A DNA stretch of 34,793 nucleotides from DHVE2 group archaeon (GCA_015523125.1 WAKX01000020.1:1-34793), one strand, 5' to 3'; counted from the first letter of the stretch, positions 9,634 to 23,416 are shown. Notes: generated by a model not told the origin, from the letters alone. Translations and numbers: made by a program.

Positions 9634-9930
9634 ATGTTAAAAATAAAGAGGTACATGCTGTCCAAGGACGAAATGGCAGAGGCAATGGAATACTTCAAAG
9701 GGGAGAGGATGAGGTACTATATTTACTCCTACAAAATACACAAGGGTAGAAGATGGATCACACTGGTAAGGTTAGATAATTTGGATGGAATGGAACACAT
9801 GGACATTTACGACGAGAACGGGAATTACAGAGAAACCCGAGAATTTCCGCGTAAAAAATTCGATGATTTCGTGAAAATCGTGAAAACCTTCCGACGAAAC
9901 ATAATCGCGGTGGACATCTCCAACCTGTGA
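9634..9930 (+). CDS. Small protein resembling TumE-type toxins
   Basis: This 98-residue protein has a compact alpha/beta pattern: a beta-rich centre YYIYSYKIHKGRRWITLVRLDN, then GMEHMDIYDENG and a C-terminal helix KKFDDFVKIVKTF. The order 'aromatic strands, RxDN, H, then a charged helix' resembles the TumE (DUF6516-like) proteins that precede winged-helix genes in archaea. Its neighbour is just such a gene, nine bases downstream. The start is ATG 9634, behind GGGGTGA, four bases after the deacetylase stop. The toxin assignment rests on a pattern recognised by eye plus the pairing, so it is tentative; a non-toxic partner of the HTH protein is possible. Confidence 0.45.
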   Translation: MLKIKRYMLSKDEMAEAMEYFKGERMRYYIYSYKIHKGRRWITLVRLDNLDGMEHMDIYDENGNYRETREFPRKKFDDFVKIVKTFRRNIIAVDISNL

Positions 9931-9939
9931 GGTGAAAAA

Positions 9940-10374
9940 ATGAAATTGATCTTGAAGAGGAGGTACAGGGAAGAGGACATTGAAATTCTTAGAAAGGCAA
10001 TAAGGAGAAAATACGGGAGAATGGAGAAAATAAAAAAGCTTATGCAAATCAAAAAATGTGCCATGCCTGATTTAGGAGAGGCATACTTGATGAAACTCGC
10101 AATCGATGAAGGCTCTGGGATTGAGGAAGAAGTGATTATCGAAGATAGAAAAGTTCTTAATCACCTGAGTGCAAAGCGGTTCGAATTAATAGAATTTCTA
10201 AATAAAAACAAGCCCATGTCTTTAAAAGAATTGGCGGGAAAATTGGGGCGAGACTACAAAAATGTGTATGACGATGTGTCTTCTCTTAGTAATTATTTCG
10301 TGGTTAGCGTGGTCAAATTCGGCCGCGAGAGCGTTCCAGTGGGGGTTGTGGAAGACATGCAAATTCGGGTATAA
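9940..10374 (+). CDS. Winged-helix DNA-binding protein (HVO_A0114/TumA-like)
   Basis: This 144-residue protein has a basic N-terminal half (KLILKRRYREEDIEILRKAIRRKYGRME) and a C-terminal winged helix. The helix-turn-helix is clear in RFELIEFLNKNKPMSLKELAGKLGRDYKNVYDDVSSL (given here as family pattern; about residues 86-120), the layout of HVO_A0114-type regulators. It ends with a short wing (VVSVVKFGRES). The ribosome binding site GAGGTGA lies six bases before the ATG. It follows the TumE-like gene and ends the operon. By family analogy it could be antitoxin and autorepressor; the palindromic DNA just downstream of its stop, in front of the KaiC operon, is a possible target. That link is inference. 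Confidence 0.7.
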   Translation: MKLILKRRYREEDIEILRKAIRRKYGRMEKIKKLMQIKKCAMPDLGEAYLMKLAIDEGSGIEEEVIIEDRKVLNHLSAKRFELIEFLNKNKPMSLKELAGKLGRDYKNVYDDVSSLSNYFVVSVVKFGRESVPVGVVEDMQIRV

Positions 10375-10443: not shown

Positions 10444-10467
10444 GGGGTGGTGAAAAACGCAGAAACA

Positions 10468-10475
10468 TTTATATA
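10468..10475 (+). promoter_or_regulatory. Strong TATA box of the KaiC-like operon
   Basis: TTTATATA, in the context CATTTATATATGG, is one of the best TATA matches in the window. Transcription is predicted to start at about 10498-10500, coinciding with the second ATG of the first gene, so the operon appears to begin with a leaderless message. Confidence 0.6.
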
Positions 10476-10499
10476 TGGATATGTGATATGACATATTGC

Positions 10500-10787
10500 A
10501 TGTATGCTTACCGCGTTGGAAACATAAAATACAATCTCAGAGGAACCAAAGGGGAAGTGTGCGGGGGAGATGGAAGTTTATGGATATCTTCAGACTCCAT
10601 TCTCATCAAAGAGAAATCCAAATGGTTGTACATACAGGGAAATCATATAAAGGGAGCCAAAATAAAGAAAGAGGCTCTTCTTCTTCGACTTGTCAACGAC
10701 TCATCAGTTGAGTTGAATTCTAAGAATGTTTATATTCTTAATGCACTTTACCATTATATAGAGGGAGCCATATGGAAGAAGGCATAG
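10500..10787 (+). CDS. Small beta-rich protein, first gene of the KaiC-like operon
   Basis: This protein of about 95 residues is predicted to be mostly beta strands followed by one helix: GSLWISSDSILIKEK, WLYIQGNHIKGAKIKKEALLLRLV, then YILNALYHYIEG. That pattern resembles the PH-like domain of archaeal CheF-type adaptor proteins, a weak resemblance made by eye. There is no signal peptide or membrane segment. The frame also opens at ATG 10488, but the TATA box puts transcription start at about 10500, where a second ATG gives a leaderless start. It overlaps the V4R gene by 16 bases and is the promoter-proximal gene of the module. Confidence 0.6.
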   Translation: MYAYRVGNIKYNLRGTKGEVCGGDGSLWISSDSILIKEKSKWLYIQGNHIKGAKIKKEALLLRLVNDSSVELNSKNVYILNALYHYIEGAIWKKA

Positions 10788-11605
10788 CCAGGATCATATA
10801 CGTGTTCGGTGAACTAACAAAGATGGAAGCGGCCATAAGTACGGTTATTGCGAAGTCAAAGGTTCCCACCAAAGAGATTCGTGTCTTGCTTAAGAGCCAT
10901 AATCGGCTGCAGGTTGAGCGCACGCCGCTTTTTCAGTACATGAGGGATTTCTTCAAGGATATAGGACTTGGTAATTTAAGGTGTGAGGGAATAGAGCCAT
11001 TTGTAATCACATTCGGAGTATACGACTCGAAAATACCCCGATTGTTCGCCGACACGAAGGGCAAAACATGCTATATAACTGCCGACGCGTTGAAGATGTT
11101 TTTCGAGAAGGACATGGATATAATCGTGGAAGTTACCGAGACCAAGTGCGTAAATGAAGGGGAAGATCATTGTGAATTTGCGGTGAAGATGAACCCTCCG
11201 GACGTGCTGAAATACGTAGTTGAAAGCGAGGACATGGAGATACTCAGAAAAATGAAGGATGATGAAGAAATAGGAAAAGAAGGGAAAATGCGGATTTTCG
11301 ATTTGGAAAGATACGGCCTCGTGGAAAACGGAAAAATCACCATTCTGGGTGAAAAATATCTGGAGCTTGGTTTATCTCCTGAGGTGGTAGAGGTTGAGCG
11401 GCCTTGGAAAAAATTATCTGAAATCTCGGAAGTTACGGCATCCGCAAAATCATTTGCGGAGGCTTTTTCAAGATCCATAGAGGATGATGTGGAAGAGGTC
11501 GATGAAGAGGTTTTGGTGAATGTGGTGGAAGAAACCGAAAAGAGCAAAAGTTTTGCAGAGTTAGTTGCGAAGTTTATGAAAAAGGAGGTGAAAGATGATG
11601 AATAG
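10772..11605 (+). CDS. V4R-domain sensory protein with acidic repeated tail
   Basis: This 277-residue cytoplasmic protein contains a V4R (4-vinyl-reductase) domain, a small-molecule-binding sensor fold. The signature is the closing motif VTETKCVNEGEDHCEF with cysteines at about 126 and 134; another cysteine lies at about 100 (KGKTCYITAD). A short helical segment follows (MRIFDLERYGL, residues 173-183), then a low-complexity acidic tail from about 210. The tail repeats a motif: KSFAEAF at 226-232 and KSFAELV at 259-265, separated by acidic residues. Such repeats may dock to a partner, possibly the KaiC-like ATPase encoded next, which it overlaps by a few bases. GGGAG precedes the ATG. The V4R call is good; the ligand is unknown. 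Confidence 0.75.
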   Translation: MEEGIARIIYVFGELTKMEAAISTVIAKSKVPTKEIRVLLKSHNRLQVERTPLFQYMRDFFKDIGLGNLRCEGIEPFVITFGVYDSKIPRLFADTKGKTCYITADALKMFFEKDMDIIVEVTETKCVNEGEDHCEFAVKMNPPDVLKYVVESEDMEILRKMKDDEEIGKEGKMRIFDLERYGLVENGKITILGEKYLELGLSPEVVEVERPWKKLSEISEVTASAKSFAEAFSRSIEDDVEEVDEEVLVNVVEETEKSKSFAELVAKFMKKEVKDDE

Positions 11606-12476
11606 ATTCCCATCTGGAATATTTGGACTGGACAGATTAATAGAAGGAGGATTTAGAGATAAGACGGCCAACGTGATTGTTGGTTCAAGCGGTACTGGAA
11701 AAACGACATTTGCCATACAATTTATTATGCATGGCATCGAGAACGGTGAGCAGGGTTTGTACATCTCCCTTGAGGAGAAACCGAAGCAGATAATGGAAGA
11801 AGCTGCGCTAATGGGATTTGACATGGAAAAGCATTACGAAGAAAGCCTGTTTTTCATTCATCTCAAAGGCGAGAATTTCAAGAAGATGATCGAGGAGCAA
11901 CTTCCAGCATTGGTGAAGGCAAGGAGCGATTATTTGATAAAGACGAGGATAGTGGTGGATCCTCTGACACCCGTCATATGGGCCACCGACGATAAGTTGC
12001 AGCAAAGAGAGCTCATAGGCAAGTTGTTCTACACGGTCAAGAATTTAGGTGTGGTTGTTGCCACCGTTGAAGAGCATACAAAGCCTGGAGAAACCATAGG
12101 CGAGGATGTTCTCACTCCGGTGTATCTATCGGACGGTGTTCTCCATCTGGATTATTATCCTGTTGGCGGAGCTTTCAACAGGACTCTCCAGATTCTCAAA
12201 ATGAGGGGTACCAAGCATGGTGAAGGCGTCTACCCTTTCATATTCGTGCGCGGCGCTGGAATTGTGGTGAGAAGCACACCCTTGGAAACTAAGGAAGAGG
12301 AGAAGAAGGATTATTCCAAGGTGTTCGAGGAAGCCATAGAGACTGCAAAGATGCTTAAGGCTCCACCGAATGTGATAATGAAGATAGAGAATATAAAGAA
12401 GTGGTGGAACTATCCATACTCGCCAGAGGAGATCATCGAAATAATATTTGACTCATACGGCCTAAAGGTGAGGTGA
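11598..12476 (+). CDS. KaiC-like single-domain RecA-superfamily ATPase
   Basis: This protein of about 292 residues is a one-domain KaiC-family ATPase. The opening FPSGIFGLDRLIEGGF is typical of KaiC and RadA-like proteins. Walker A is GSSGTGKTT (about 29-37), the catalytic glutamate pair lies in SLEEKPKQ (59-60), and Walker B is RIVVD (117-121). An extra C-terminal 80 residues (from about 210) hold helices not found in the minimal fold. Two ATGs lie at 11595 and 11598; the near-perfect AAAGGAGGTGA favours the second, six bases away. Archaeal KaiC-like ATPases have been proposed as hubs of signal transduction. The neighbours here (V4R, roadblock, coiled-coil/HTH) fit this, and no archaellum genes are nearby, so FlaH is unlikely. 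Confidence 0.85.
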   Translation: MNRFPSGIFGLDRLIEGGFRDKTANVIVGSSGTGKTTFAIQFIMHGIENGEQGLYISLEEKPKQIMEEAALMGFDMEKHYEESLFFIHLKGENFKKMIEEQLPALVKARSDYLIKTRIVVDPLTPVIWATDDKLQQRELIGKLFYTVKNLGVVVATVEEHTKPGETIGEDVLTPVYLSDGVLHLDYYPVGGAFNRTLQILKMRGTKHGEGVYPFIFVRGAGIVVRSTPLETKEEEKKDYSKVFEEAIETAKMLKAPPNVIMKIENIKKWWNYPYSPEEIIEIIFDSYGLKVR

Positions 12477-12477
12477 A

Positions 12478-13263
12478 TTGCAGGGGAAAAAGTTGGAGAA
12501 GACCCTTGAGGCGAGGGACGTCACACTTCTCCGCTCTCTGTTGCATCTTTCCATAATGCGTCTCAGAGAAGAGGGGAACATAGATCTGATACTCTTCGTG
12601 GGTGTGAATGGAAGGATATTCGATTCTTTAATTCCGGAGGTTCTGGACGCAAGAGAGTACTATTTGCTAAATATGTTCAAGTCCAACCTCTACAAAATAT
12701 GCTCTCAGCTGAAGAGCAAGAACATGAAGATATCCATCGAAGCATATAGCAGTGGAACAATGATCATATCAAAGGTTGGAGATGCGGCGTTCCTCGCGGT
12801 TATGATTACGAGGGACTTAAAGCACGAGGAGTTGCAGAAATTGATTTCTGTGACAAACAAATGGAGTATTATCGTGAATCACATCTTCCAGCTCAAACCC
12901 CTGAGCGGGCCGGAGATAGAAGGATATCCAGATGAAATAAAAGAAGAGTTCCACAAGTTGAGCAGGCAACTTTTCGTCAAGAGCTTCGCGCACACGAAGC
13001 AGTACAGGAAGAATCAGAAAATCATGGAATACTTCAAAAAGGAGCTTTCTTCGATTGTGGGTGTGGGGATGGTTGACGAGGTAATAACTATATCTTTCAA
13101 CGAGTTGGGAACTGCGCCTCAGTACATGACGGACGACCTCTGGCCCATATTCGTGGAAAAGATAGCTAACAGGGTTCGTGCGGTCAGGGGGGATATGATA
13201 GCAGACGAGTACTATAAGAAATGGATTGGCGATGTTGAGCGCTTGATAAGAAGCTTTGTGTGA
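12478..13263 (+). CDS. Roadblock/LC7-like protein with extra C-terminal domain
   Basis: This 261-residue protein starts at a TTG, the first usable codon after AAAGGTGA and two bases after the ATPase stop. Residues of about 10-120 resemble a roadblock/LC7 domain: helix, strand LILFVGVNGRIFDSLIP, helix LNMFKSNLYKICSQL, and strands ISIEAYSSGTMIISKVGDAAFLAVMIT. Such domains serve as dimeric platforms for small GTPases or regulators. The remaining half (about 150-261) is helical and not recognised; it contains VGMVDEVITISFNEL and ends in a helix. There are no transmembrane segments. The domain assignment is by pattern and moderately sure. It shares GTGA with the next gene. Confidence 0.6.
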   Translation: MQGKKLEKTLEARDVTLLRSLLHLSIMRLREEGNIDLILFVGVNGRIFDSLIPEVLDAREYYLLNMFKSNLYKICSQLKSKNMKISIEAYSSGTMIISKVGDAAFLAVMITRDLKHEELQKLISVTNKWSIIVNHIFQLKPLSGPEIEGYPDEIKEEFHKLSRQLFVKSFAHTKQYRKNQKIMEYFKKELSSIVGVGMVDEVITISFNELGTAPQYMTDDLWPIFVEKIANRVRAVRGDMIADEYYKKWIGDVERLIRSFV

Positions 13264-14549
13264 GAAATATGGATGTGGAGGAAAAGATAAAAAAGATGGA
13301 CGAGTCGTTGAAGAATAGGGCAACAACAGCGATGCTCTCAGAGATGAGAAAAGACTTGGAGAAAAAGATAGCGGATATCCAAGAGATGATAGATAGCAAG
13401 AGTGGGGAGCGGGGAGATGAGATAAATAAATTGAGAGAGGAGATAAAAGAAATAGAGGGAAAAATACAGGAGATGAAGAAATCGTCCATGAGCCTCCAGG
13501 ATGATATATCCCTTTTGAGAAAATATTTTTTGAAATACGAAAAGTTGCAGAAAAGGGTCAAAAATATGGAAGATGTAATGGGGATAGAGGAGGACATAAA
13601 CGTCAACAAGATTCCCCCCAGCATACTGCGATTGGTTTATCAGTACACACTCAACGATGCAATCGACATGCTCAGAAAATATGTTGGGCCATCCGAATCC
13701 GAGAGGATAATGAAGTATGTTTTGCAGGATGTGAGGACTAGAACCAGTGGTACAGAGCTTTTCAAGCTGGTAAACGGAAAGATAGAAGCCCGAGATATTG
13801 AGAAGGCTATAAAAAAGAAGTTAATATCCCCTAAGCAGATTCACTTGACCTACATAGAGATCATAAACAAAATACGGGAGTACATACCCGGATTCGTACC
13901 AAAGAATTTTGCCTCGCTTCTAAGAACCAAGGGACAGGAGTACGCCATCGAGACTTCCACCGAAAATAGAATACGGATTGAAATGCTGGAAAGGAACATA
14001 GAGAATATGAGGGGCGAAATGTCCTATCAGGAGAATATACTCAGGGAGGACATAAGCGAAATCAAGAGAATGATAGAAATGGACATTCAGAACACTGCAA
14101 ATTCTTTGAGTGAGCGGATCTCCAAAGTTGAGGAAATGGTCTCGGGTCTTCACGATGAGATGGAGAGGATCGCGGATACAATTAAGCACATGTTCCCATA
14201 CATATCTTCGTTAAGGGGTCAGATTTATTCGAAGATAATGGAAGACATACCTCCGGAGGGCATACCTTTGGAAAATTTAGAGTATCCTTCTGAAATTATA
14301 AACGATTTTCTAAATGAGGAGATAAACAGGGGGAATGTGATTTTGCAGGATAACGTGGTGTATTCAACGGAGAAAATAAAGAACAGGATTCTGGAAGCGC
14401 TGGAGGAGAAATCCCTGAGCTTTTCAAAACTGAGGAAGGAGTTGGGTTATGAGAAGGAAATTCTCGTCACGGTACTGGAATGGATGAAAAAAGAAGGACT
14501 GGTAGAGGAGAAAAAATATGGAAAAGGAAAGAAATATAAAAGGAGGTGA
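13260..14549 (+). CDS. Coiled-coil scaffold protein with C-terminal winged helix
   Basis: This 429-residue protein begins with a coiled coil of about 100 residues (EEKIKKMDESLKN to EKLQKRVKNMEDV), rich in E, K, I and M heptads. A globular helical middle (about 110-235, from PPSILRLVYQYTLNDAIDML to YAIETS) follows, then a second coiled coil (about 240-305, ENRIRIEMLERNIENM to LHDEMERIADTI). The C-terminal 55 residues form a winged helix: KIKNRILEALEEKSLSFSKL, KELGYEKEILVTVLEWM, KKEGLVEEKKYGKG. It may be a dimeric scaffold or a DNA-binding output of the module. The start is the GTG overlapping the previous stop (GTGA); ATG 13269 is the alternative. No family name is recognised. Confidence 0.7.
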   Translation: MRNMDVEEKIKKMDESLKNRATTAMLSEMRKDLEKKIADIQEMIDSKSGERGDEINKLREEIKEIEGKIQEMKKSSMSLQDDISLLRKYFLKYEKLQKRVKNMEDVMGIEEDINVNKIPPSILRLVYQYTLNDAIDMLRKYVGPSESERIMKYVLQDVRTRTSGTELFKLVNGKIEARDIEKAIKKKLISPKQIHLTYIEIINKIREYIPGFVPKNFASLLRTKGQEYAIETSTENRIRIEMLERNIENMRGEMSYQENILREDISEIKRMIEMDIQNTANSLSERISKVEEMVSGLHDEMERIADTIKHMFPYISSLRGQIYSKIMEDIPPEGIPLENLEYPSEIINDFLNEEINRGNVILQDNVVYSTEKIKNRILEALEEKSLSFSKLRKELGYEKEILVTVLEWMKKEGLVEEKKYGKGKKYKRR

Positions 14550-14554
14550 AAAAA

Positions 14555-15184
14555 GTGTTGGATATTGCCCTGGTATCACTCATACAGGATATGAGTGAGA
14601 AGGCAGGAGTGGAAGGAACGATACAGTACTGGCTACGCGTGGGAGAGAATCTTGCGAAGAGAATGGGTAAAGAAGCGTACATGGGCTGGCCCTCTTTCAA
14701 CGTGGCTCTGAGAGAGGGAAGAACGGCATTCTCCATTGAGGGAAATGTTGTTGCCCTAACGGATCTGGCAATAACTGATATCGACGGAGATGTTGTTGGC
14801 TACATATATGCTCTGGAGAAATGCGTTTTTGAGCCCACGATACTGAGAGTGAGGTATAGCGTTGGCCAACTACCAAAGGCGGACAAGCAGATAGCGGATG
14901 AGTACAACATGACTTACAGGAATATCGCTGTGTGCAACTTTTGCATTATTCACGTGAAATTCAGAGAAGAAGTTGCCAGAAATATAACAATCGCCGGCCA
15001 GCCCCTGGAGGCTTTGCATCTGGCCAATCGAGGATTTACCGGTGATACGAAGATCGACGAGGAGAATTTGAACAAAATTGGCATAAACCGCGAATACGTT
15101 CGTAGTTTGCTGAGGAATTATGCGTGCGTGTTTGCGCTAGTTATGAAAGGTGCCCGTTTGAAGGGGGAGGTGAATGAAGAATGA
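14555..15184 (+). CDS. Unknown protein, paralogue A of a tandem pair
   Basis: I do not recognise this family. The protein has about 209 residues and is cytoplasmic. Its first 65 residues form helices with the pattern DIALVSLIQDMSEKAG, YWLRVGENLAKRMG, EAYMGWPSFNVAL; the middle is beta-rich; the end returns to helix (GINREYVRSLLRNYACVFALVM). Four cysteines are present, including VCNFC in the middle region. The following gene has the same layout and is clearly a diverged duplicate. The open frame reaches GTG 14546, but that lies inside the AAAGGAGGTGA ribosome binding site; GTG 14555, five bases after it, is the likely start. Its proximity to V4R and KaiC-like genes suggests a sensor or adaptor role, which is inference. 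Confidence 0.7.
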   Translation: MLDIALVSLIQDMSEKAGVEGTIQYWLRVGENLAKRMGKEAYMGWPSFNVALREGRTAFSIEGNVVALTDLAITDIDGDVVGYIYALEKCVFEPTILRVRYSVGQLPKADKQIADEYNMTYRNIAVCNFCIIHVKFREEVARNITIAGQPLEALHLANRGFTGDTKIDEENLNKIGINREYVRSLLRNYACVFALVMKGARLKGEVNEE

Positions 15185-15804
15185 AGCAGATAAGCGGAGA
15201 TAATGAGGAGTTGCTGGATAATCCAATGGTGGATATTGCGACGTATCTGTTCCTGGAGGACATAGCGGACAAGCAAGGCGCCGCTGGAATGAACAATTAT
15301 CTGATGAGCCTCGCCTATTCTTTGGCCAGAAGCATGCCAGAGGAAGAGTACACGAGCTGGGATAGTTTCGTGGAAGCCATAGTAAAAGGGGAATCCATTC
15401 TATCCGCATTCGAGAAGGTTAACGCAGTGTCCAGCAATTGTATGGTGACAGTTGATAGTCCGTTCCTCAGAGGGTGGAAAGAGTACACCAAGAGGATTGG
15501 TGAATTCCCTAGGATACACAAGGAGGTAGCTGAGTATTACAACTCCCGCATCACTCCGACAGCCATAGAGACAGGAGATATAATCATCCAGACTTACAGA
15601 AAGGCTGCAGCTGAGAAGATAACTGTTGAGGGCAAGAAGGTGAGAGTAGCACATATAGCAACGGTTTCTCCCGATGGTTCAAAGAAGATAGCACCGGAAG
15701 AATGGCTCCCCATTCTGTTGGAGAAGGCAAATATAACTAGGACACAGCTTAACATGATTCTAAGGAACAATGCGGCAGTATGGATCATTTATCCCACCCA
15801 ATAA
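15181..15804 (+). CDS. Unknown protein, paralogue B of a tandem pair
   Basis: This 207-residue protein parallels the preceding one: helix DIATYLFLEDIADKQG, then YLMSLAYSLARSMPEEEYTSWDSFVEAI, a variable middle, and a closing helix ITRTQLNMILRNNAAVWIIY that matches VRSLLRNYACVFALV of its neighbour. It has a single cysteine, so the cysteines of paralogue A are not part of the shared core. Identity looks low, implying an old duplication and different ligands or partners. GGGAGGTGA lies seven bases before the ATG, which overlaps the previous stop by ATGA. It is the last gene of the KaiC-like operon; a hairpin plus T-run begins within its final codons. Confidence 0.7.
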   Translation: MKQISGDNEELLDNPMVDIATYLFLEDIADKQGAAGMNNYLMSLAYSLARSMPEEEYTSWDSFVEAIVKGESILSAFEKVNAVSSNCMVTVDSPFLRGWKEYTKRIGEFPRIHKEVAEYYNSRITPTAIETGDIIIQTYRKAAAEKITVEGKKVRVAHIATVSPDGSKKIAPEEWLPILLEKANITRTQLNMILRNNAAVWIIYPTQ

Positions 15805-15821
15805 TTTTGGGTGTTTTTTTT
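15795..15821 (+). terminator. Hairpin-plus-T8 terminator at the end of the KaiC-like operon
   Basis: CACCCAA (15795-15801) and TTGGGTG (15807-15813) form a perfect 7-bp stem with a five-base loop, followed by eight T. This is a bacterial-style intrinsic terminator shape. The stop codon of paralogue B lies in the loop region and the possible starts of the GNAT gene lie in the 3' arm and T-run. Confidence 0.6.
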
Positions 15822-16344
15822 GATAATCATTGCGAGGGACACAGACAACGATTACTATTTGATAGAAGAAGCAAGCGAGGTGGATGAGTTCAAAATCGGA
15901 AGTTTGAATTTTTTCCACCTTTACGGAATCGTAGATTATCGGGAAACTTTTAAAATTTGGCTCCGTAAATTTCCGAGACCTATTTTCATCACGGCGGTTC
16001 GCGGGGACACCATAGTTGGATTTATTTACGTAGACGCGTGGGAAGAGCTGCCTTTCGTGGTAAACGTGCTGCGTGCACAGGAAACTGAGGAAAGGTTGAG
16101 AGGAAAGAAAATAGGTTACAAGCTTTTTCTTCTCGGTGCTTATTTAACTTCAGAATACATGATCACAAAGCCTTTAACCGAGCAATCCAGAAATTTTTAC
16201 AAAAAATTAGGATTTGAGGATATATCACAAATACCCCTGTTCGGAAATTACCATCAGGTTGTGGGATACATGGGGTTGCCAACGGATAAAAAAAGAGAAC
16301 ATGTTGCGCAGATATCTTCGTATTTTACTGCCCTTTCGCTTTAA
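15820..16344 (+). CDS. GNAT-family N-acetyltransferase
   Basis: This protein of about 174 residues has the acetyl-CoA-dependent GNAT fold. The strand pair FITAVRGDTIVGFIYVDAW is followed by the CoA-loop region ERLRGKKIGYKLFLLGAYL (R-G-K-x-I-G-x-K in place of the usual Q/RxxGxG/A) and a closing NFYKKLGFEDI, which is the typical C-terminal GNAT motif. The substrate is unknown. There is no early ATG. TTG 15820 is chosen because GGGTG lies seven bases before it, as in other genes here; GTG 15811 is the alternative and would overlap the terminator stem. No separate TATA box is visible, so expression probably depends on read-through of the hairpin. It is convergent with the gene ending at 16346. 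Confidence 0.7.
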   Translation: MIIIARDTDNDYYLIEEASEVDEFKIGSLNFFHLYGIVDYRETFKIWLRKFPRPIFITAVRGDTIVGFIYVDAWEELPFVVNVLRAQETEERLRGKKIGYKLFLLGAYLTSEYMITKPLTEQSRNFYKKLGFEDISQIPLFGNYHQVVGYMGLPTDKKREHVAQISSYFTALSL

Positions 16345-16345
16345 T

Positions 16346-17122
16346 TTATTTTTTCCATTTTGGTGCGTTTTCCCTTTTTCCATGTTTCTTACCCAAGAGC
16401 ATGAATGTAAATAGTGTCGCTAAGGTGACCAGAGTGGCTATTCCCAAGTATCCGACCCAGTCATAGTTTGGTGGGTTTCCTATGTATATTGTTCTGCTGT
16501 AACTTACTTTGTTGTTCTCGAACATCACCCCTTTCTCTGTGAGCCTCATCTCTAAAACGTGCTCTCCATTACCCACATCTGGCACCCAAACGTACTTTAC
16601 CTGTTTGGTGGAATTTGCCCCTATTTTGTCAACGGTGGTATTCCCTATGTATCTTCCGTCGATGTAGAAATTAACGGTTACATTTGTTATTGTATAATTT
16701 TCTACGTTTTTAACGTCTGCCACAATGGTGTACGATTTTTTTACCTCCACCGCGAGCTTTCTTTCGAACACCTTTACTTTGTGCGTTGAATTGACCAGAC
16801 CATAGCCCCTAAAATCTAAGTATATAGTTTGGGTTGCATTAGGTGTTGTTACATCGAATGTGAAAAACCCATCGTAGCTTGTTTTTAGCACCTCCGATAA
16901 TGGCTCTGCACCACTGAGATTTTGCCCTCCCATCAGAAGCGTGCATTTGTACATGTCAAAATCCCCATTTATGTATACTTTGTACTGAACACTGGTGTTC
17001 ATGGCAACCACCGTGGGTCCCTCCACATGCATTCCCGCGCTGGAGGCGCCCGAACTCACGGGAAACATGTAAAGAAATGAGAGAGCTATCACTAGAGACA
17101 GAATCACTCCTATGCCTTTCAT
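16346..17122 (-). CDS. Secreted membrane-anchored CARDB-like protein coupled to aglB
   Basis: This 258-residue protein has a signal peptide (residues 1-26, MKGIGVILSLVIALSFLYMF then VSSGASS). It has a two-sandwich ectodomain and a C-terminal membrane helix (about 222-243) followed by a basic tail GKKHGKRENAPKWKK. The second sandwich (KKSYTIVADVKNVENYTITNVTV to GEHVLEMRL, about 120-195) looks like a CARDB or related Ig-like adhesion domain. Many NXS/T sequons are present. Its ATG overlaps the stop of aglB by four bases, so the two are translated together. It may be an accessory subunit or substrate of the oligosaccharyltransferase; no function is established. It ends two bases from the convergent GNAT gene. 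Confidence 0.75.
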   Translation of the reverse strand: MKGIGVILSLVIALSFLYMFPVSSGASSAGMHVEGPTVVAMNTSVQYKVYINGDFDMYKCTLLMGGQNLSGAEPLSEVLKTSYDGFFTFDVTTPNATQTIYLDFRGYGLVNSTHKVKVFERKLAVEVKKSYTIVADVKNVENYTITNVTVNFYIDGRYIGNTTVDKIGANSTKQVKYVWVPDVGNGEHVLEMRLTEKGVMFENNKVSYSRTIYIGNPPNYDWVGYLGIATLVTLATLFTFMLLGKKHGKRENAPKWKK

Positions 17123-20100
17123 CTCCTATACCTCCCTACTATGAGTATCGCAATCGCAAGAGCTATGGCCGCTCCCCATACCCAGTAATAATAGTCTTCT
17201 ATCTCTATTCCTGTGTAATTGTGCACGTTCTCTCCGACCACATACAGACTGCTATGTCCAATTTCCGGAGAGTAGAGCTGTAATTTCACCACGTTGTCTT
17301 TCTTCCCATCGAAGGCAGATATCTCAACGGGTTCCACAAGCGAAGGATTTTTAGTCGTTGCTGTAGCTATTATTTTCACCTTGTAGCTCTGTCCCGCACT
17401 CAGATTCACCCAGTTTCTCATCTCTCCGTTTACCAAAATCTCGAGATTCCATCCTTTGTCTTTCAGCTCCATTCCGTTGAGGACGGAAAGAGTGTAATTC
17501 ACCCTGAGGTTACCTTTGTTCTCTATATTAATCACATACACCAAGGAGTTGTTATCCCAGCCTATCATATTTTCCTTCAAATAAGTTTTGTATCTGGCGG
17601 TCACGTTTGTGTGTATTGTGATATCTTGGGATAACCCGGAGAACACTACGCGAATCTGCAGACTGTTTTCTCCGTACTTGGCTGATTTTGGCACCTGTAG
17701 GATCAGGGAAACCATTTTGTTCTCTCCCGGATATAACATGTATTTTTCTTTGTTCTTTATTTCCCAGCCATTTACCCCTTCAAAGCTCACATTTTCTGCG
17801 ATGTTTCCTTCGTTGCTTATCCTCACGGTTACGCCCATGGTGCCGTTGGGATTCACCAACGCGTCTGCAGAAATAACCTTCGCATCTATTATGTGCGAAG
17901 TGTCTCTCTTTAAGTGTATGTCGTAGGCCATATCTCCGGTTATGTTTATCTTCTCGTCGAAGTAATAGGTTATGTTTAACCCATACTCTACCCTGCTTAC
18001 ACTTGCTCGAATGTTATATTCTCCATGGGGCAAAATTACCCAGTAATACCCGTAAGAGGGTATATCGATGGTGGCTTTTTCAACACTAATATGGATGATT
18101 GTGTTTACTCTCTCCCCTTTAAGATACGTGGCTCCGCTTATTACGTATCCCTTTTCCATGCTTATGTTTAGATTCATCTCCTTACCGTTCACATGAACCT
18201 CGGAGATATTCGCGTATTTATTATTGCCAGAGATGAAGTATGTGTACACCATGTAATGTCCTGGAGTTAGATGAATTTCGTAGTTGCCGGAGGCATCCGT
18301 TACTGTGGTTTCGTTTGATGCGTAGCTTTCCAGGGAGATGAAGCGAATCACACAATTTCCAAACTCCTCTGCGCCGGTGAGCTTGCCTTTGAGGTCAGTG
18401 AGGATATTGGTTTTGATTACGTTGAGTGTAACTGTGGTATTTGCTCTTATCTCTGTTTCATTCATCGCGTGGTACACGTAGTAGTTTCCGTTTTCAACCT
18501 TTGTTTTGGTTATAGTGAAGTTATAGTATCCTGCAGGAAGCCTTACCATACCTGTTGCGGTTATGTACGCACTACCATTTCTCACATTTACCGGAGTATC
18601 TGGAGAGTAATTAACTATGTTGAAAGCAACAGAATATGCCGGATACAGAGGAACCTCGATTGTCGCATTCTCCTCGATGTCCACTGAAATCATGTTTGCT
18701 GATGTTTCGTTGGTAGCGTATATTGTGTATTCTCCTATCAATATGTCCTTTACCTTTCCGCTCGTTATGTTGCGGCCATTTTTGAACCAGCTCACATGGT
18801 CTGCCTGGGAAACTATCATTACATGAGCGTAAGCTTTGAAGGTTATGTTGAACGTCTGCTGGGCAAATCCCCGGTGTATCACCAATTTACCAGTTTGTAT
18901 CTGGTATGTGCGATTGTATCCAAAGATGCTCACGGTATAATTGCCCGGGGGCAGATACACAGAATATTTCGAGGTCACACCATAAACTTCCTGTGTGTAA
19001 TTATCCGCTGATTTGAACCTTATGTTAACTGGTATATCATTTACCATGTTTCCTCTGCTTAGTATCCCACTCACGTGGGTCATTGAAGGAGCCACTTTTA
19101 CTTTCACGAATTTCCCGTAAGATACGGAAGTCTGATTGTAGCCCCAGAGTATTGTTTTTATCTTGTAATCGATGGTTGTGGGCATGGTGAAGTTTCCATC
19201 GGGCGGTATGTTGCGTATCTCGTATATTCCTTGGGAATCGTAGAGACACACAAGGCCATTATCTATAATTTCTCCGGGATCTACTTTGTTGTTATTGTTC
19301 TTATCAAAATAAACAGTTCCTGTCACATTATATGCTCTGTGAAGCGTTACGTCCACATATCTGTTACTGCTCACGTGTATAATTTCTCTCCCAAAGTAAG
19401 GAGTGCGGTTATCCGTGAAACCAACGGAGCCAATCACGTACTTGCCTGCAGGTAGATATACTTCGAAGTAATTGGTTCCATTGGCAAACGCTCTGTAAAA
19501 TGTGTTTTCTCTATATATGCCAACTTCTGGATTCTTAACTTTGGCATCAACATGAACGTATCCGTATATCTTATACGCCTCTTCCAGATGTAAATTCAAA
19601 TTCATGTTGCTGTTCAGATTTATGGTGTTTAGGTATGCAATTCTTTTGTTATTGACATAACCCGTGGTGTATATTGTGTATATCCCTCCAGGAATCTTTA
19701 TGTTGAAGTACCCTTTACCGTCCGTGGAAATTATATATATGTCGTGAGGGAGCAACTCTGATGTTATCTTTATCGTCAAATGCCCTGCGGGGATACCCTC
19801 AAATGTGGCCCTGCCGCTGAGCTTGAATGCGTGGCGAAGGGTTAAGTTAACGGAAGTGGTGTAGTTCCATAGGTTTACAATCACTATCTGATTTGAGGAT
19901 TTAAACTCTCCAATGGTGGCTACCACGGTGTAATTATCCGGCACAACCATCACTTTAAAGCTTCCATTCTCATCGGTGTTAACATGATATTTTGCGTAAA
20001 TTCCTTTGAGCTCCACGGTTGCGTTGTTTGCAGGGGTACCATTTACGAATGTTACGTTTCCTGTTATGTATGAGGGGGTAATGGAAATATCCTTTGTGAG

Positions 20101-23100
20101 ATTCTGTCCGGAACTCAGAGATATATTTTCCACATCTTTAAAGTATCTTCCGTTCAAAATCACGTCCGCTGTGTATGTGTGGGGAGCTATATTTTTTATA
20201 CTGTACATACCATTTGTTATTGGCGAAGTCTTGTTGAATCCGTATGTATTGTTTCTCAGCACGAATGTACCGCTATTTATCTTTACATCTCCCTTATCAA
20301 ATCTGTTATCCCCGTTTACATCGAAATATACTATTCCATCTAAGTTTGCCGGTTTGATTGTTATATCTTTCTCAATCACGTAATTTGGCTTGAGGCGCAT
20401 TGCCTGTTCCTCGCTCACATTTATTTTCCCACTGTAAAGAATGGTTTGTTCAATCATTTTCAGTTTGTTCAATTTCCCGTTAGTGGAAACAATCAACGTT
20501 AAATTACCCGCCACGGCAGGTATTCTATATTGCCCGTTTGAGTCTGTGAAAACGGAAACATGGGGTATTCCGTATTCATCCAGGAGAGTTACCCTCACGT
20601 GTCTTGCGGGCTCCCCGTTGGATAATTTCACCTCGCCTCTTACTATTGCGCCTTCGTAGAATTTGACCATAACCACGTCGTTTGGCAATATCTGATATGC
20701 GGGAGGGTTCAACTCCACCACGCCCTTATTCTCGTTCTGATATTTTAATGCCAAATCGATTGGTATGGGCTTCCAATCTTTTGTGTGGTTTTGATAATCT
20801 TTATATGGGTTCCAGAATGCGGTTCTGTATACCAATTTGAAATGAGCCATGTCCCATGCTTGCATGGGGTAATAATTGTAGAGGCTTGGTGAAATACCCG
20901 GGATACCATCGCTTGCACCCACGTCCTGTCCGGAATATCCTATGAACGTCTTATAAAGCATGCTGTGGTAAAACATCGGTTTGTATTCTATTTTGTAGTC
21001 CACGATCCTCACATTTCCCGGAACCTTATCTAAATCGTACTCATTGCCGTACTGGTCCACGGCTTTAAGGGTGTAGAAATCATAAGGTACAACGGTACCT
21101 CCAAATTCTTGTATTCTTCTGTCTCCCAACTTCGCGGGGGCATAGAATATTCCCGTGTTTCTCCCGGAGAATGGGAACAGACGATAATCGATTGCAAAGT
21201 ACCTTATGTCTTTACCCGTGTAATTTCTCACATCATCGTACAGGCTGATTAAGAACGTCTCGGAGTGGTGAGCGAACATACCTTTGAGGTACGCGTATTT
21301 TGTATTTGTATCGGATATGTCTTTCTCGTAGTATCCATAGTAATCAGGGTTGTTGAGCACAACGTCCCTGTATTTTCCTGGGTTTTTCATGACATCTCTA
21401 ATTTTTTCTACATCTTCCGCTGAGAAGTATTTGTACAAAATATTTAGCATACCCTGCGAGAACTGGTCATGATGTGTTTTGTAGTTTCCCTCCATCAATC
21501 TTATCGTGAAAAGAGAGATCACTTCGCTCTCGTTCTGGGCCGTAATGATTTGGGCGGCCATCTGATATCCGTTCTGGAAGTTGTCTGCCACTGCAGGATG
21601 CTGGCCCTGTCTTATGGCCGAGAACCCGTAGTCCCACCATGACACGAAAGCAGGCCTATCTTCAGGTATTGTATTGTTATCCTGTTCCCGTAACCATTTC
21701 CACGCCCTCTCCCATGGATATTCTGGCTTGGGTAGAGAGTAACCGAATGCACCCAAGTACCACGGTGAAGATTTGTTATATGTGGTTTCGTTAGGTCTTA
21801 TAAAAGAAGGCATTGCGTTGTAAATCTGCTTATCATAGGTCTTCTTGGTTTCGTAAGGAATGCCGGCGTCTATGGCACTCCACACCGTTGGGACCACCAA
21901 TAAAAATGCGAGAACTAAAACGAACGCCACCTGCGAAAATTTCATGGCGGATTTTAGCTTCTTTTTCCAGCTACCCTGATACTTTCTGTATTCTTCAAAA
22001 CTTTCTCTGAATCTCAAGACATCTAAGAGCCAAATCACGCCTATGGCCGCCGTTAGTGCAAAGGCGGGGGAAGCGTTGAATATGAAACGGGCTGCGGATA
22101 TTGCCATGTACACGGCTATTATCGAGTAGAATACAAAGAAGAGGTAGTATTCTTCCTTCTCTTTTTTAACCAGGTAGAGAATCCAGATTATCCCACCAAA
22201 CGCCAGCAAAAATATTGCTACCCCGAATGACATTGCCAAATATCCGAGTGTGGCAGGTTGTGCCTCTGCGATCGTAGAGTACAATTTACTTTTGACGAAG
22301 TACCCCTGTCCGCTGGCAATCAGAGCCCAGTAGTCTGGGAGGAATACATTTATTAATACTAATCCCGCACCTATGATGATCGCCGAGATGCCAAATACCA
22401 AAGGCCATGGGTATTTTCCAGTTACTTCTAAGATTATTCCCACCAATAGAACTCCCCCAATCAATATGAGGGGTACATCAAACCAATTTTTTATGGTATG
22501 CGTTATGAAGTACCACGGGAATGCCAATCCGAACGCCGAGATTATAAATATGCCCATTATCATTACTATATGTAGCAGCGATTTGTTCCTGAATCTGTTG
22601 ATGAATACCTGTACGATTAGATAAATAGATAAGATGGCAATTGCATAAGTGTATCCTTTCCAAGCGAGGGCCAGGGCCCCGATGGACACACCGGAGAGAG
22701 CTGCGTAAACCATTGATTCTTTGTTCTCTTTGAAATATTCACTCAAACCATTTTTGATTGATTCCTTGTTGAACCAGTCCTTTATCCAGTACTTATAATG
22801 CACGGTTTTCAGAGCTCTGAGGAAGAAATAGAATGAGAACACGATGAAAAACAGGTCGAATGCGTCCCAATCCGCCTGTGTGGCAACGCTCCTGGTAATT
22901 GCCGCGGGCATGATTGCGAGGAAGAAAGCCGCAAGCAAACCAGCTTTTTTGCTGAAAGCCTCCTTACCCAATAGATATACGGGTATCACGGTGAGTGAGC
23001 CCCATATTGCGGGGAAAAGTATTAGTGAGAGTAAAGCTGCGTTGTATATGTTGTTGCCCATGAAAGGCGCAAACAGGAACCCTAACATTACAATTCCCCA

Positions 23101-23382
23101 GTGGAATAGCGGAGGTCTCGGGTTAATGCTGCCGATGGGATAATTGAGCATGGGATCATTTATCATCTGGTGTTTTGAATTCAAAATGTAATCTATAATT
23201 CTCTCGTGATAATACGAGTCAGAACCACCGGACACCGCGTAGCCGTACTGGATAGAGGGTCCCACTGCCCAGTATATCCTGATGAACAGAGCTAAGGCTA
23301 CTATCAAGCCCAGTATCACCGGAATCCGAAGTTTGTCCCACTGAATACCATGTAGTTTTTTACCAATCTTTAGCCCGGGCAT
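17119..23382 (-). CDS. aglB: Giant oligosaccharyltransferase AglB (STT3) with long beta-repeat extension
   Basis: This protein of about 2,087 residues transfers lipid-linked glycans to asparagine in NXS/T sequons outside the membrane. The first 500 residues hold about 13 membrane helices with the catalytic acids in GGSDSYYH (D about 55) and ADWDAFD (171-173), and the TIxE motif (TIAE, 370-373). The soluble part has SWWDYG (582-586). A usual archaeal enzyme would end near residue 900-950. Here about 1,170 residues follow: many carboxypeptidase-regulatory-like sandwiches (GxVxxxNGxPxxNAxV...DxxGxF), two calcium-loop motifs (DVNGDNRFDKGD, DKNNNNKVDPGE), NEW3-like domains and a final membrane helix with GRYRR. 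Start 23382 is chosen because GGTGA lies five bases upstream and the TATA box excludes the ATG at 23412. Confidence 0.93.
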   Translation of the reverse strand: MPGLKIGKKLHGIQWDKLRIPVILGLIVALALFIRIYWAVGPSIQYGYAVSGGSDSYYHERIIDYILNSKHQMINDPMLNYPIGSINPRPPLFHWGIVMLGFLFAPFMGNNIYNAALLSLILFPAIWGSLTVIPVYLLGKEAFSKKAGLLAAFFLAIMPAAITRSVATQADWDAFDLFFIVFSFYFFLRALKTVHYKYWIKDWFNKESIKNGLSEYFKENKESMVYAALSGVSIGALALAWKGYTYAIAILSIYLIVQVFINRFRNKSLLHIVMIMGIFIISAFGLAFPWYFITHTIKNWFDVPLILIGGVLLVGIILEVTGKYPWPLVFGISAIIIGAGLVLINVFLPDYWALIASGQGYFVKSKLYSTIAEAQPATLGYLAMSFGVAIFLLAFGGIIWILYLVKKEKEEYYLFFVFYSIIAVYMAISAARFIFNASPAFALTAAIGVIWLLDVLRFRESFEEYRKYQGSWKKKLKSAMKFSQVAFVLVLAFLLVVPTVWSAIDAGIPYETKKTYDKQIYNAMPSFIRPNETTYNKSSPWYLGAFGYSLPKPEYPWERAWKWLREQDNNTIPEDRPAFVSWWDYGFSAIRQGQHPAVADNFQNGYQMAAQIITAQNESEVISLFTIRLMEGNYKTHHDQFSQGMLNILYKYFSAEDVEKIRDVMKNPGKYRDVVLNNPDYYGYYEKDISDTNTKYAYLKGMFAHHSETFLISLYDDVRNYTGKDIRYFAIDYRLFPFSGRNTGIFYAPAKLGDRRIQEFGGTVVPYDFYTLKAVDQYGNEYDLDKVPGNVRIVDYKIEYKPMFYHSMLYKTFIGYSGQDVGASDGIPGISPSLYNYYPMQAWDMAHFKLVYRTAFWNPYKDYQNHTKDWKPIPIDLALKYQNENKGVVELNPPAYQILPNDVVMVKFYEGAIVRGEVKLSNGEPARHVRVTLLDEYGIPHVSVFTDSNGQYRIPAVAGNLTLIVSTNGKLNKLKMIEQTILYSGKINVSEEQAMRLKPNYVIEKDITIKPANLDGIVYFDVNGDNRFDKGDVKINSGTFVLRNNTYGFNKTSPITNGMYSIKNIAPHTYTADVILNGRYFKDVENISLSSGQNLTKDISITPSYITGNVTFVNGTPANNATVELKGIYAKYHVNTDENGSFKVMVVPDNYTVVATIGEFKSSNQIVIVNLWNYTTSVNLTLRHAFKLSGRATFEGIPAGHLTIKITSELLPHDIYIISTDGKGYFNIKIPGGIYTIYTTGYVNNKRIAYLNTINLNSNMNLNLHLEEAYKIYGYVHVDAKVKNPEVGIYRENTFYRAFANGTNYFEVYLPAGKYVIGSVGFTDNRTPYFGREIIHVSSNRYVDVTLHRAYNVTGTVYFDKNNNNKVDPGEIIDNGLVCLYDSQGIYEIRNIPPDGNFTMPTTIDYKIKTILWGYNQTSVSYGKFVKVKVAPSMTHVSGILSRGNMVNDIPVNIRFKSADNYTQEVYGVTSKYSVYLPPGNYTVSIFGYNRTYQIQTGKLVIHRGFAQQTFNITFKAYAHVMIVSQADHVSWFKNGRNITSGKVKDILIGEYTIYATNETSANMISVDIEENATIEVPLYPAYSVAFNIVNYSPDTPVNVRNGSAYITATGMVRLPAGYYNFTITKTKVENGNYYVYHAMNETEIRANTTVTLNVIKTNILTDLKGKLTGAEEFGNCVIRFISLESYASNETTVTDASGNYEIHLTPGHYMVYTYFISGNNKYANISEVHVNGKEMNLNISMEKGYVISGATYLKGERVNTIIHISVEKATIDIPSYGYYWVILPHGEYNIRASVSRVEYGLNITYYFDEKINITGDMAYDIHLKRDTSHIIDAKVISADALVNPNGTMGVTVRISNEGNIAENVSFEGVNGWEIKNKEKYMLYPGENKMVSLILQVPKSAKYGENSLQIRVVFSGLSQDITIHTNVTARYKTYLKENMIGWDNNSLVYVINIENKGNLRVNYTLSVLNGMELKDKGWNLEILVNGEMRNWVNLSAGQSYKVKIIATATTKNPSLVEPVEISAFDGKKDNVVKLQLYSPEIGHSSLYVVGENVHNYTGIEIEDYYYWVWGAAIALAIAILIVGRYRR

Positions 23383-23416
23383 GTTACTCACCGAATCAAA
23401 GCGGTATTGCATTTCT

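Follow-up and report, generated by a model that had tools for sequence, protein, structure and literature searches.

An eight-gene block around a KaiC-family ATPase in uncultured Thermoplasmata that looks like an undescribed archaeal signaling complex

A block of eight genes found in many uncultured Thermoplasmata looks like an undescribed archaeal signaling complex with a KaiC-family ATPase at its center. The genes form a conserved operon, the core genes co-occur, the proteins have predicted folds, and the ATPase and a pair of paralogues (A and B) are under very strong purifying selection. That the block encodes a Thermoplasmata signaling complex for ligand-gated, ATP-driven control of transcription is a reading to which we give roughly an even chance. 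We know of no assigned partners for most archaeal KaiC-like ATPases, and the block names likely partners of one of them, since the same proteins are found in the same order class-wide. Three of these proteins are under exceptionally strong constraint.

Layout of the gene block

The window, meaning the whole 34,793-nucleotide stretch of DNA that was analyzed, is contig 20 of a 1.54-Mb genome that is 95% complete. The features of the block are listed below with the evidence for each.

10461-10475, plus strand: promoter, BRE-like AGAAAC and TATA box TTTATATA (motif conserved in seven species)
10500-10787, plus strand: m1, 95-aa probable PH/GRAM-like protein (weak PH-fold matches)
10772-11605, plus strand: m2, V4R domain followed by a predicted winged helix and a tail that carries the SFAE motif twice (PF02830)
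11595-12476, plus strand: m3, single-domain KaiC-family ATPase with a conserved C-terminal extension (PF06745 profile)
12478-13263, plus strand: m4, N-terminal roadblock/MglB fold and C-terminal helical domain, predicted (AlphaFold2, Foldseek)
13260-14549, plus strand: m5, conserved central helical domain flanked by two coiled coils, then a C-terminal winged helix-turn-helix (wHTH; profile matches)
14546-15184, plus strand: m6 (A), hyperconserved protein of predicted V4R/TRAPPC3 fold (AlphaFold2, Foldseek)
15181-15804, plus strand: m7 (B), paralogue of A, always adjacent to it (profile comparison, gene order)
15795-15821, plus strand: hairpin and T-run spanning the B stop codon and the GNAT start (folding compared with shuffles)
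15820-16344, plus strand: GNAT-family acetyltransferase, eighth gene of the cluster (PF00583, gene order)

Genes m1 to m7 are seven same-strand open reading frames spanning 10500-15804, joined by overlaps of 16, 11, 4, 4 and 4 bases or by a 1-base gap, which agrees with the head-to-tail arrangement originally described. The TATA box proper, also part of that description, lies at 10468-10475. The motif GAAAC.TTTATATA is found about 32 nt 5' of the homologous m1 ATG and is kept in seven species despite differing flanks; given this spacing, the mRNA is probably leaderless. The m1 start had been placed at 10488, an ATG that is unconserved beyond the nearest relative, and both this and the promoter spacing move it to the ATG at 10500, so that the first gene has 95 residues.

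The hairpin with its T8 run is real and folds better than its shuffles (z = -3.35); it does not close the cluster as had been assumed, because the GNAT gene follows it and adjoins B in 45 of 45 loci. Hairpin/U-tract elements with other stems are present in some relatives and absent in others, which is why this element may lower transcription rather than end it.

Two small genes lie upstream at 9634-10374, encoding proteins of 98 aa and 144 aa, the latter with an HVO_A0114-type HTH. They adjoin the module in many families and are sometimes on the opposite strand (L160, L170, L171). On the other side, the minus strand of 16346-23412 carries two genes that face the module, one for a membrane protein of 258 aa and one for an STT3/AglB-like protein of 2097 aa whose C-terminal part is long and repetitive.

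Predicted proteins

The ATPase m3 scores 153.9 bits against PF06745 (cut-off 26.6), and its closest solved proteins are KaiC, with the Walker A, catalytic EE, Walker B and KxRG (trans KxR) motifs aligned and intact; the KaiC-like assignment of the original prediction is therefore retained. The protein is a single 293-aa domain and falls below every NCBIfam equivalog cut-off, those of ArlH and circadian KaiC included. Archaellum ArlH/FlaH, the known identity that the original prediction had singled out as an alternative, was ruled out at 55.1 bits against a cut-off of 215, and circadian KaiC at 81.6 bits against 546 and with one ATPase domain rather than two. The family matches that profile searches returned for the cluster include none to arl, kai or gvp genes.

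The AlphaFold2 model of m4 (pLDDT 85, pTM 0.61) predicts a roadblock domain in the first 140 residues, followed by helices. Foldseek matched it with probability 1.00 both to Myxococcus xanthus MglB (8.8e-6) and to Asgard Roadblock3 (TMt 0.75). The earlier roadblock-like call thus stands by fold, the Roadblock/LC7 Pfam profile being absent from the families shown for 37 m4 members. The N-terminal alpha-beta-beta-alpha-beta-beta-beta-alpha domain is shared with MglB and Asgard roadblock proteins (6hjm, 9jue), but m4 has an extra C-terminal helical domain, and its partner gene encodes a RecA-type ATPase, not a Ras-like GTPase.

A and B had been described as two paralogues of an unrecognized family. 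Their paralogy is upheld (28% identical; profile-profile hhalign 99.7%, E 1e-26), but the fold is not a novel one, as A models as V4R/TRAPPC3. The AlphaFold2 model of A, built from a 102-sequence alignment, has pLDDT 88 and pTM 0.86. Its best Foldseek match is TRAPPC3 (E 5.4e-4, p 0.99), and the top 41 PDB matches are all TRAPP subunits (TRAPPC3/Bet3), XylR-type sensors (PoxR/MopR/DmpR, phenol sensors among them) or BcsD. Asgard TRAPPC3 was reported to have this same set as its structural neighbors (PMC10933270). A viral structure library, used as a negative control for these matches, gave none. Profile search of 102 A/B members did not place V4R or Bet3 among the matched families, hhalign with m2 gave 0.4% and no sequence link of A/B to V4R, and a sequence search of solved structures with the A and m4 profiles returned nothing significant. 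With modest TM-scores, between 0.35 and 0.42 by query and at most 0.58 by target, and no sequence link found, we assign A by its predicted fold at superfamily level; B would be V4R/Bet3-like through its paralogy to A. Compared with the known TRAPPC3/V4R proteins (PoxR/MopR, BcsD, Asgard TRAPPC3), A shares the predicted fold and the order of helices and strands, but it has no detectable sequence similarity to them, carries extra helices at 96-123 and 172-188, and is always paired with B and linked to KaiC. The invariant residues C93, C130, C133 and H136 of A follow strand 2 and lie at the beginning of the next helix, a position which, judging by secondary structure, is approximately that of the zinc site in Asgard TRAPPC3 and PoxR. 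A near-invariant D-[VI]-D-G-D at residues 78-82 (14777-14791), in the loop joining predicted strands 1 and 2, resembles a metal-binding turn.

The V4R sensor m2, also part of the original description, just exceeds the PF02830 cut-off (31.8 against 31 bits) and matches the C-terminal part of MsvR (E 2.5e-10). Residues C100, E123, C126 and C134 are invariant, and their spacing may equal that of the MopR Cys/Glu zinc site. The short SFAE motif of the tail is duplicated in nearly all of 21 orthologues, and two copies suggest docking on a dimer or a ring. Methanogen MsvR likewise links a V4R domain to a winged helix; in m2, however, the order is reversed, with V4R first, the SFAE tail is added, and the protein reaches 40 of the 220 bits needed.

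Matches of m1 to PH folds are weak but consistent over 20 orthologues (GRAM E 0.007, PH_SLA1 0.005, PH domain of FACT Pob3 0.05), so that the small beta-rich protein first proposed is now probably PH-like or GRAM-like. Full-length orthologues have an additional C-terminal winged helix (wHTH PF24409, 6.6e-6). Because of this combination CheF, with which m1 shares a PH-like N-terminal domain, was considered; the best match to PF04283 was E 0.18, in one of 20 orthologues and short of the cut-off. Since m1 has a single PH-like domain and CheF has two, with a C-terminal tail unlike that of m1 (PMC9126983), this identity was dropped.

Across species the coiled-coil protein m5 ranges in length from some 430 to over 900 residues, with its central nameless domain conserved. 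Its C-terminal winged helix, as originally proposed, finds weak support in HTH_5 (E 0.001 in the window) and TrmB (7e-5 in relatives). The GNAT protein scores 23.0 bits against PF00583 (cut-off 20.7). An anti-phage defense identity of the cluster was rejected, as PADLOC yielded only weak coiled-coil, wHTH or P-loop matches.

Distribution, gene order and constraint

Of 400 Thermoplasmata genomes sampled across the class, 67 have the A/B pair, covering 28 of 104 genera; it was not found in genus g5, genus g3 or family f6. Named carriers of the module include members of the DHVE2 group, soil bins labeled 'Euryarchaeota EA_', Ca. Saliniplasma and Ca. Proteinoplasmatales SG8-5; Aciduliprofundum, the cultured genus of the same family, seems to be without it. 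In the phylum-wide sample A/B occurred outside the class in one genome only, G468, with 7% contamination; the contig scan used two peptide patterns, so that remote relatives in other phyla were possibly missed. One contig labeled Leptolyngbyaceae cyanobacterium HOT.MB2.61 (L157) carries an archaeal A-B-GNAT arrangement and is most likely mis-binned.

Among the 61 nearest genomes, A/B were present in 11. A close KaiC orthologue (75-100% identity) was confined to ten of these, other KaiC matches in the 61 reaching at most 42%, and the roadblock gene was confined to the same ten. In the remaining A/B genome, G005, which has only a broken contig, neither was found.

Adjacency was counted over 65 loci, each pair being scored where both genes lay on one locus and counted as kept when they were adjacent and on the same strand. 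Besides B-GNAT, it was kept by m1 and the V4R gene in 26 of 26 loci, V4R and KaiC in 31 of 31, KaiC and roadblock in 55 of 55, coiled-coil and A in 44 of 44 and A and B in 63 of 63. The roadblock and coiled-coil genes were adjacent in 35 of 36 loci, the exception (L152) having a partial profile match. Order and co-occurrence are kept across Thermoplasmata, which bears out the central expectation of the original prediction, namely that these genes occur together in other genomes. Its self-contained module is a co-inherited unit, although with GNAT it counts eight genes and not seven.

The module is two-layered, with a core of KaiC, roadblock, A and B and an accessory layer around it. Thirty-one of the 65 loci have V4R through GNAT and 18 have only the core. 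In each of the trees of KaiC, roadblock, A and B the core-only loci group as a single clade (supports 0.935-1.0), and the accessory layer has therefore been gained or lost all together. The V4R-SFAE orthologue was absent from 12 of 12 searched genomes of core-only families, which had only generic V4R proteins. Taken with the single clade, this makes the core separable. In G061 A and B are on separate contigs, and L174 has A-B-GNAT without the remaining module genes nearby.

Two core-only loci have a gene that by eye is translin-family-like directly upstream of KaiC (L181:7536-8171 and L175:7574-8191), coming after a PurD-like gene. The membrane-protein and STT3/AglB-like genes that face the module are syntenic even in core-only soil lineages.

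Median identity to the window proteins is 77% for A, 69% for KaiC and 64% for B, and 27-44% for V4R, roadblock, coiled-coil, GNAT, HDAC and STT3. Within the genus, with the near-identical G003 left out, A is 95-97% identical, compared with 84-90% for topoisomerase VI subunits. KaiC, A and B keep 88-97% protein identity with synonymous sites near saturation; 55-78% of four-fold-type codons differ, even at 91-97% protein identity. Because third codon positions are near saturation, KaiC, A and B are under very strong purifying selection, and recent horizontal transfer as the source of their high identity is ruled out. The distance matrices of A and B are the most correlated pair (r 0.94, Mantel/mirror-tree); flanking genes give high correlations as well (0.78-0.90), and these values are thus undiagnostic of interaction.

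Proposed function and alternative readings

The original inference of a ligand-sensing, ATP-switched complex is plausible. KaiC would form a ring whose shape responds to the binding and hydrolysis of ATP, and the ATP state of KaiC would be read or set by the roadblock dimer and an A-B heteromer, the roadblock protein joining the two. The heteromer itself may bind a small invariant ligand or a metal. In most lineages the V4R-wHTH protein would sense a hydrophobic or redox signal and dock through its two SFAE tail motifs, with the PH-like protein as a possible adaptor, the coiled-coil/wHTH protein as a scaffold with DNA-binding output and GNAT adjusting the complex through acetylation. Weak matches underlie the PH, wHTH and DNA-binding output assignments. 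Transcription may not be the only output of the core, because the core-only clade is without wHTH proteins at the locus. As the core consists of four soluble proteins, the core question is testable in E. coli.

KaiC-like ATPases are proposed archaeal signaling hubs (Makarova, Galperin and Koonin 2017, cited in PMC5847659), likewise with a KaiC-family ATPase central to a conserved neighborhood of sensor and adaptor proteins. In the literature searched, which took in that survey only through its citation, no match was found for a combination whose invariant partners are two TRAPPC3-fold subunits and a roadblock protein, nor for a KaiC-roadblock-TRAPPC3-fold operon. We place the module with the KaiC hubs, with a new set of partners, and not within TRAPP.

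The main rival of the signaling reading is that the core organizes structure or space in the cell. A and B would then form a heteromeric assembly, like BcsD rings or TRAPP rods, with KaiC as its assembly ATPase and the MglB-like roadblock protein as a polarity factor, for example to place envelope or motility machinery in the cell. ArlH and other relatives of KaiC serve to assemble machines, the fold matches include BcsD and MglB, and the extreme whole-protein conservation of A, KaiC and B is more typical of packed assemblies than of sensors; the wHTH proteins are also missing in one clade. However, the cluster is without filament or machinery genes, its neighbors vary between families and its accessory layer is sensor- and wHTH-like, and we hold a structural role to be rather unlikely. 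Chance is another explanation, with ordinary V4R-type one-component regulators lying beside a KaiC paralogue and conserved by operon inertia only. The flanking HDAC, HTH144 and STT3 genes are indeed syntenic in many species; yet the module stays intact where flanks change (L140-L162, neighbors differing between families), and KaiC and roadblock are confined to A/B genomes, which makes this improbable. That the block is a known KaiC system, whether archaellum ArlH, circadian KaiC or gas vesicle GvpD, is very improbable: the ATPase superfamily is the same, but m3 has a single domain, stays well below the ArlH and circadian cut-offs given above and has no arl, kai or gvp matches beside it.

A platform like TRAPP or Ragulator is a further alternative, with a Bet3-fold A/B heterodimer and the roadblock protein docking or regulating KaiC in place of a Rab GTPase, possibly at membranes. 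Homology of V4R and Bet3 is known (PMC2253512), TRAPP cores are built of Bet3-fold subunits together with dimers of the longin fold, which is related to roadblock (PMC10933270, PMC2253512), and both fold classes appear to be represented in the invariant core. Ragulator-Rag similarly pairs an NTPase with roadblock-fold subunits. On the other hand, KaiC does not belong to the GTPases, the longin and roadblock families are distinct, the resemblance of A to Bet3 is not clearly stronger than that to PoxR or BcsD, and the module gives no indication of a membrane role. Membership in a TRAPP complex, defined by Bet3-fold subunits, a longin dimer and a Rab GTPase, was rejected, since the Pfam matches of the cluster include no small GTPase and the partner is roadblock, not longin. 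A platform of this kind seems unlikely to us, more so than a structural role. It is a doubtful but somewhat better prospect that a TRAPP-like arrangement exists outside Asgard archaea, where TRAPPC3 plus roadblock proteins are known (PMC10933270), in the form of a KaiC-driven switch core of Bet3-fold pair and MglB-like roadblock with exchangeable sensor and output layers. If true, this would be a third NTPase-roadblock module beside MglA/MglB and Rag/Ragulator. The pairing of TRAPPC3 and roadblock folds, discussed as an Asgard and eukaryotic trait, is predicted here for an ATPase-linked gene set in Thermoplasmata.

Returning to the ATPase at the center of the signaling reading, further KaiC-like proteins were also seen. 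In the genome of the window, contig 31 (L214:3538-5624) encodes a second one, of 595 aa, with zinc ribbon, coiled coil and ATPase, followed by a paralogue of the PH-like m1 (E 1.3e-19), beside Kae1-Bud32; KaiC and PH may be a recurring pair. An ATPase similar to the 595-aa protein occurs at L227 in G013, which is likely Aciduliprofundum. In one genome group (L155, L156, L158, L162), an opposite-strand KaiC-family open reading frame of about 520 aa lies beyond GNAT.
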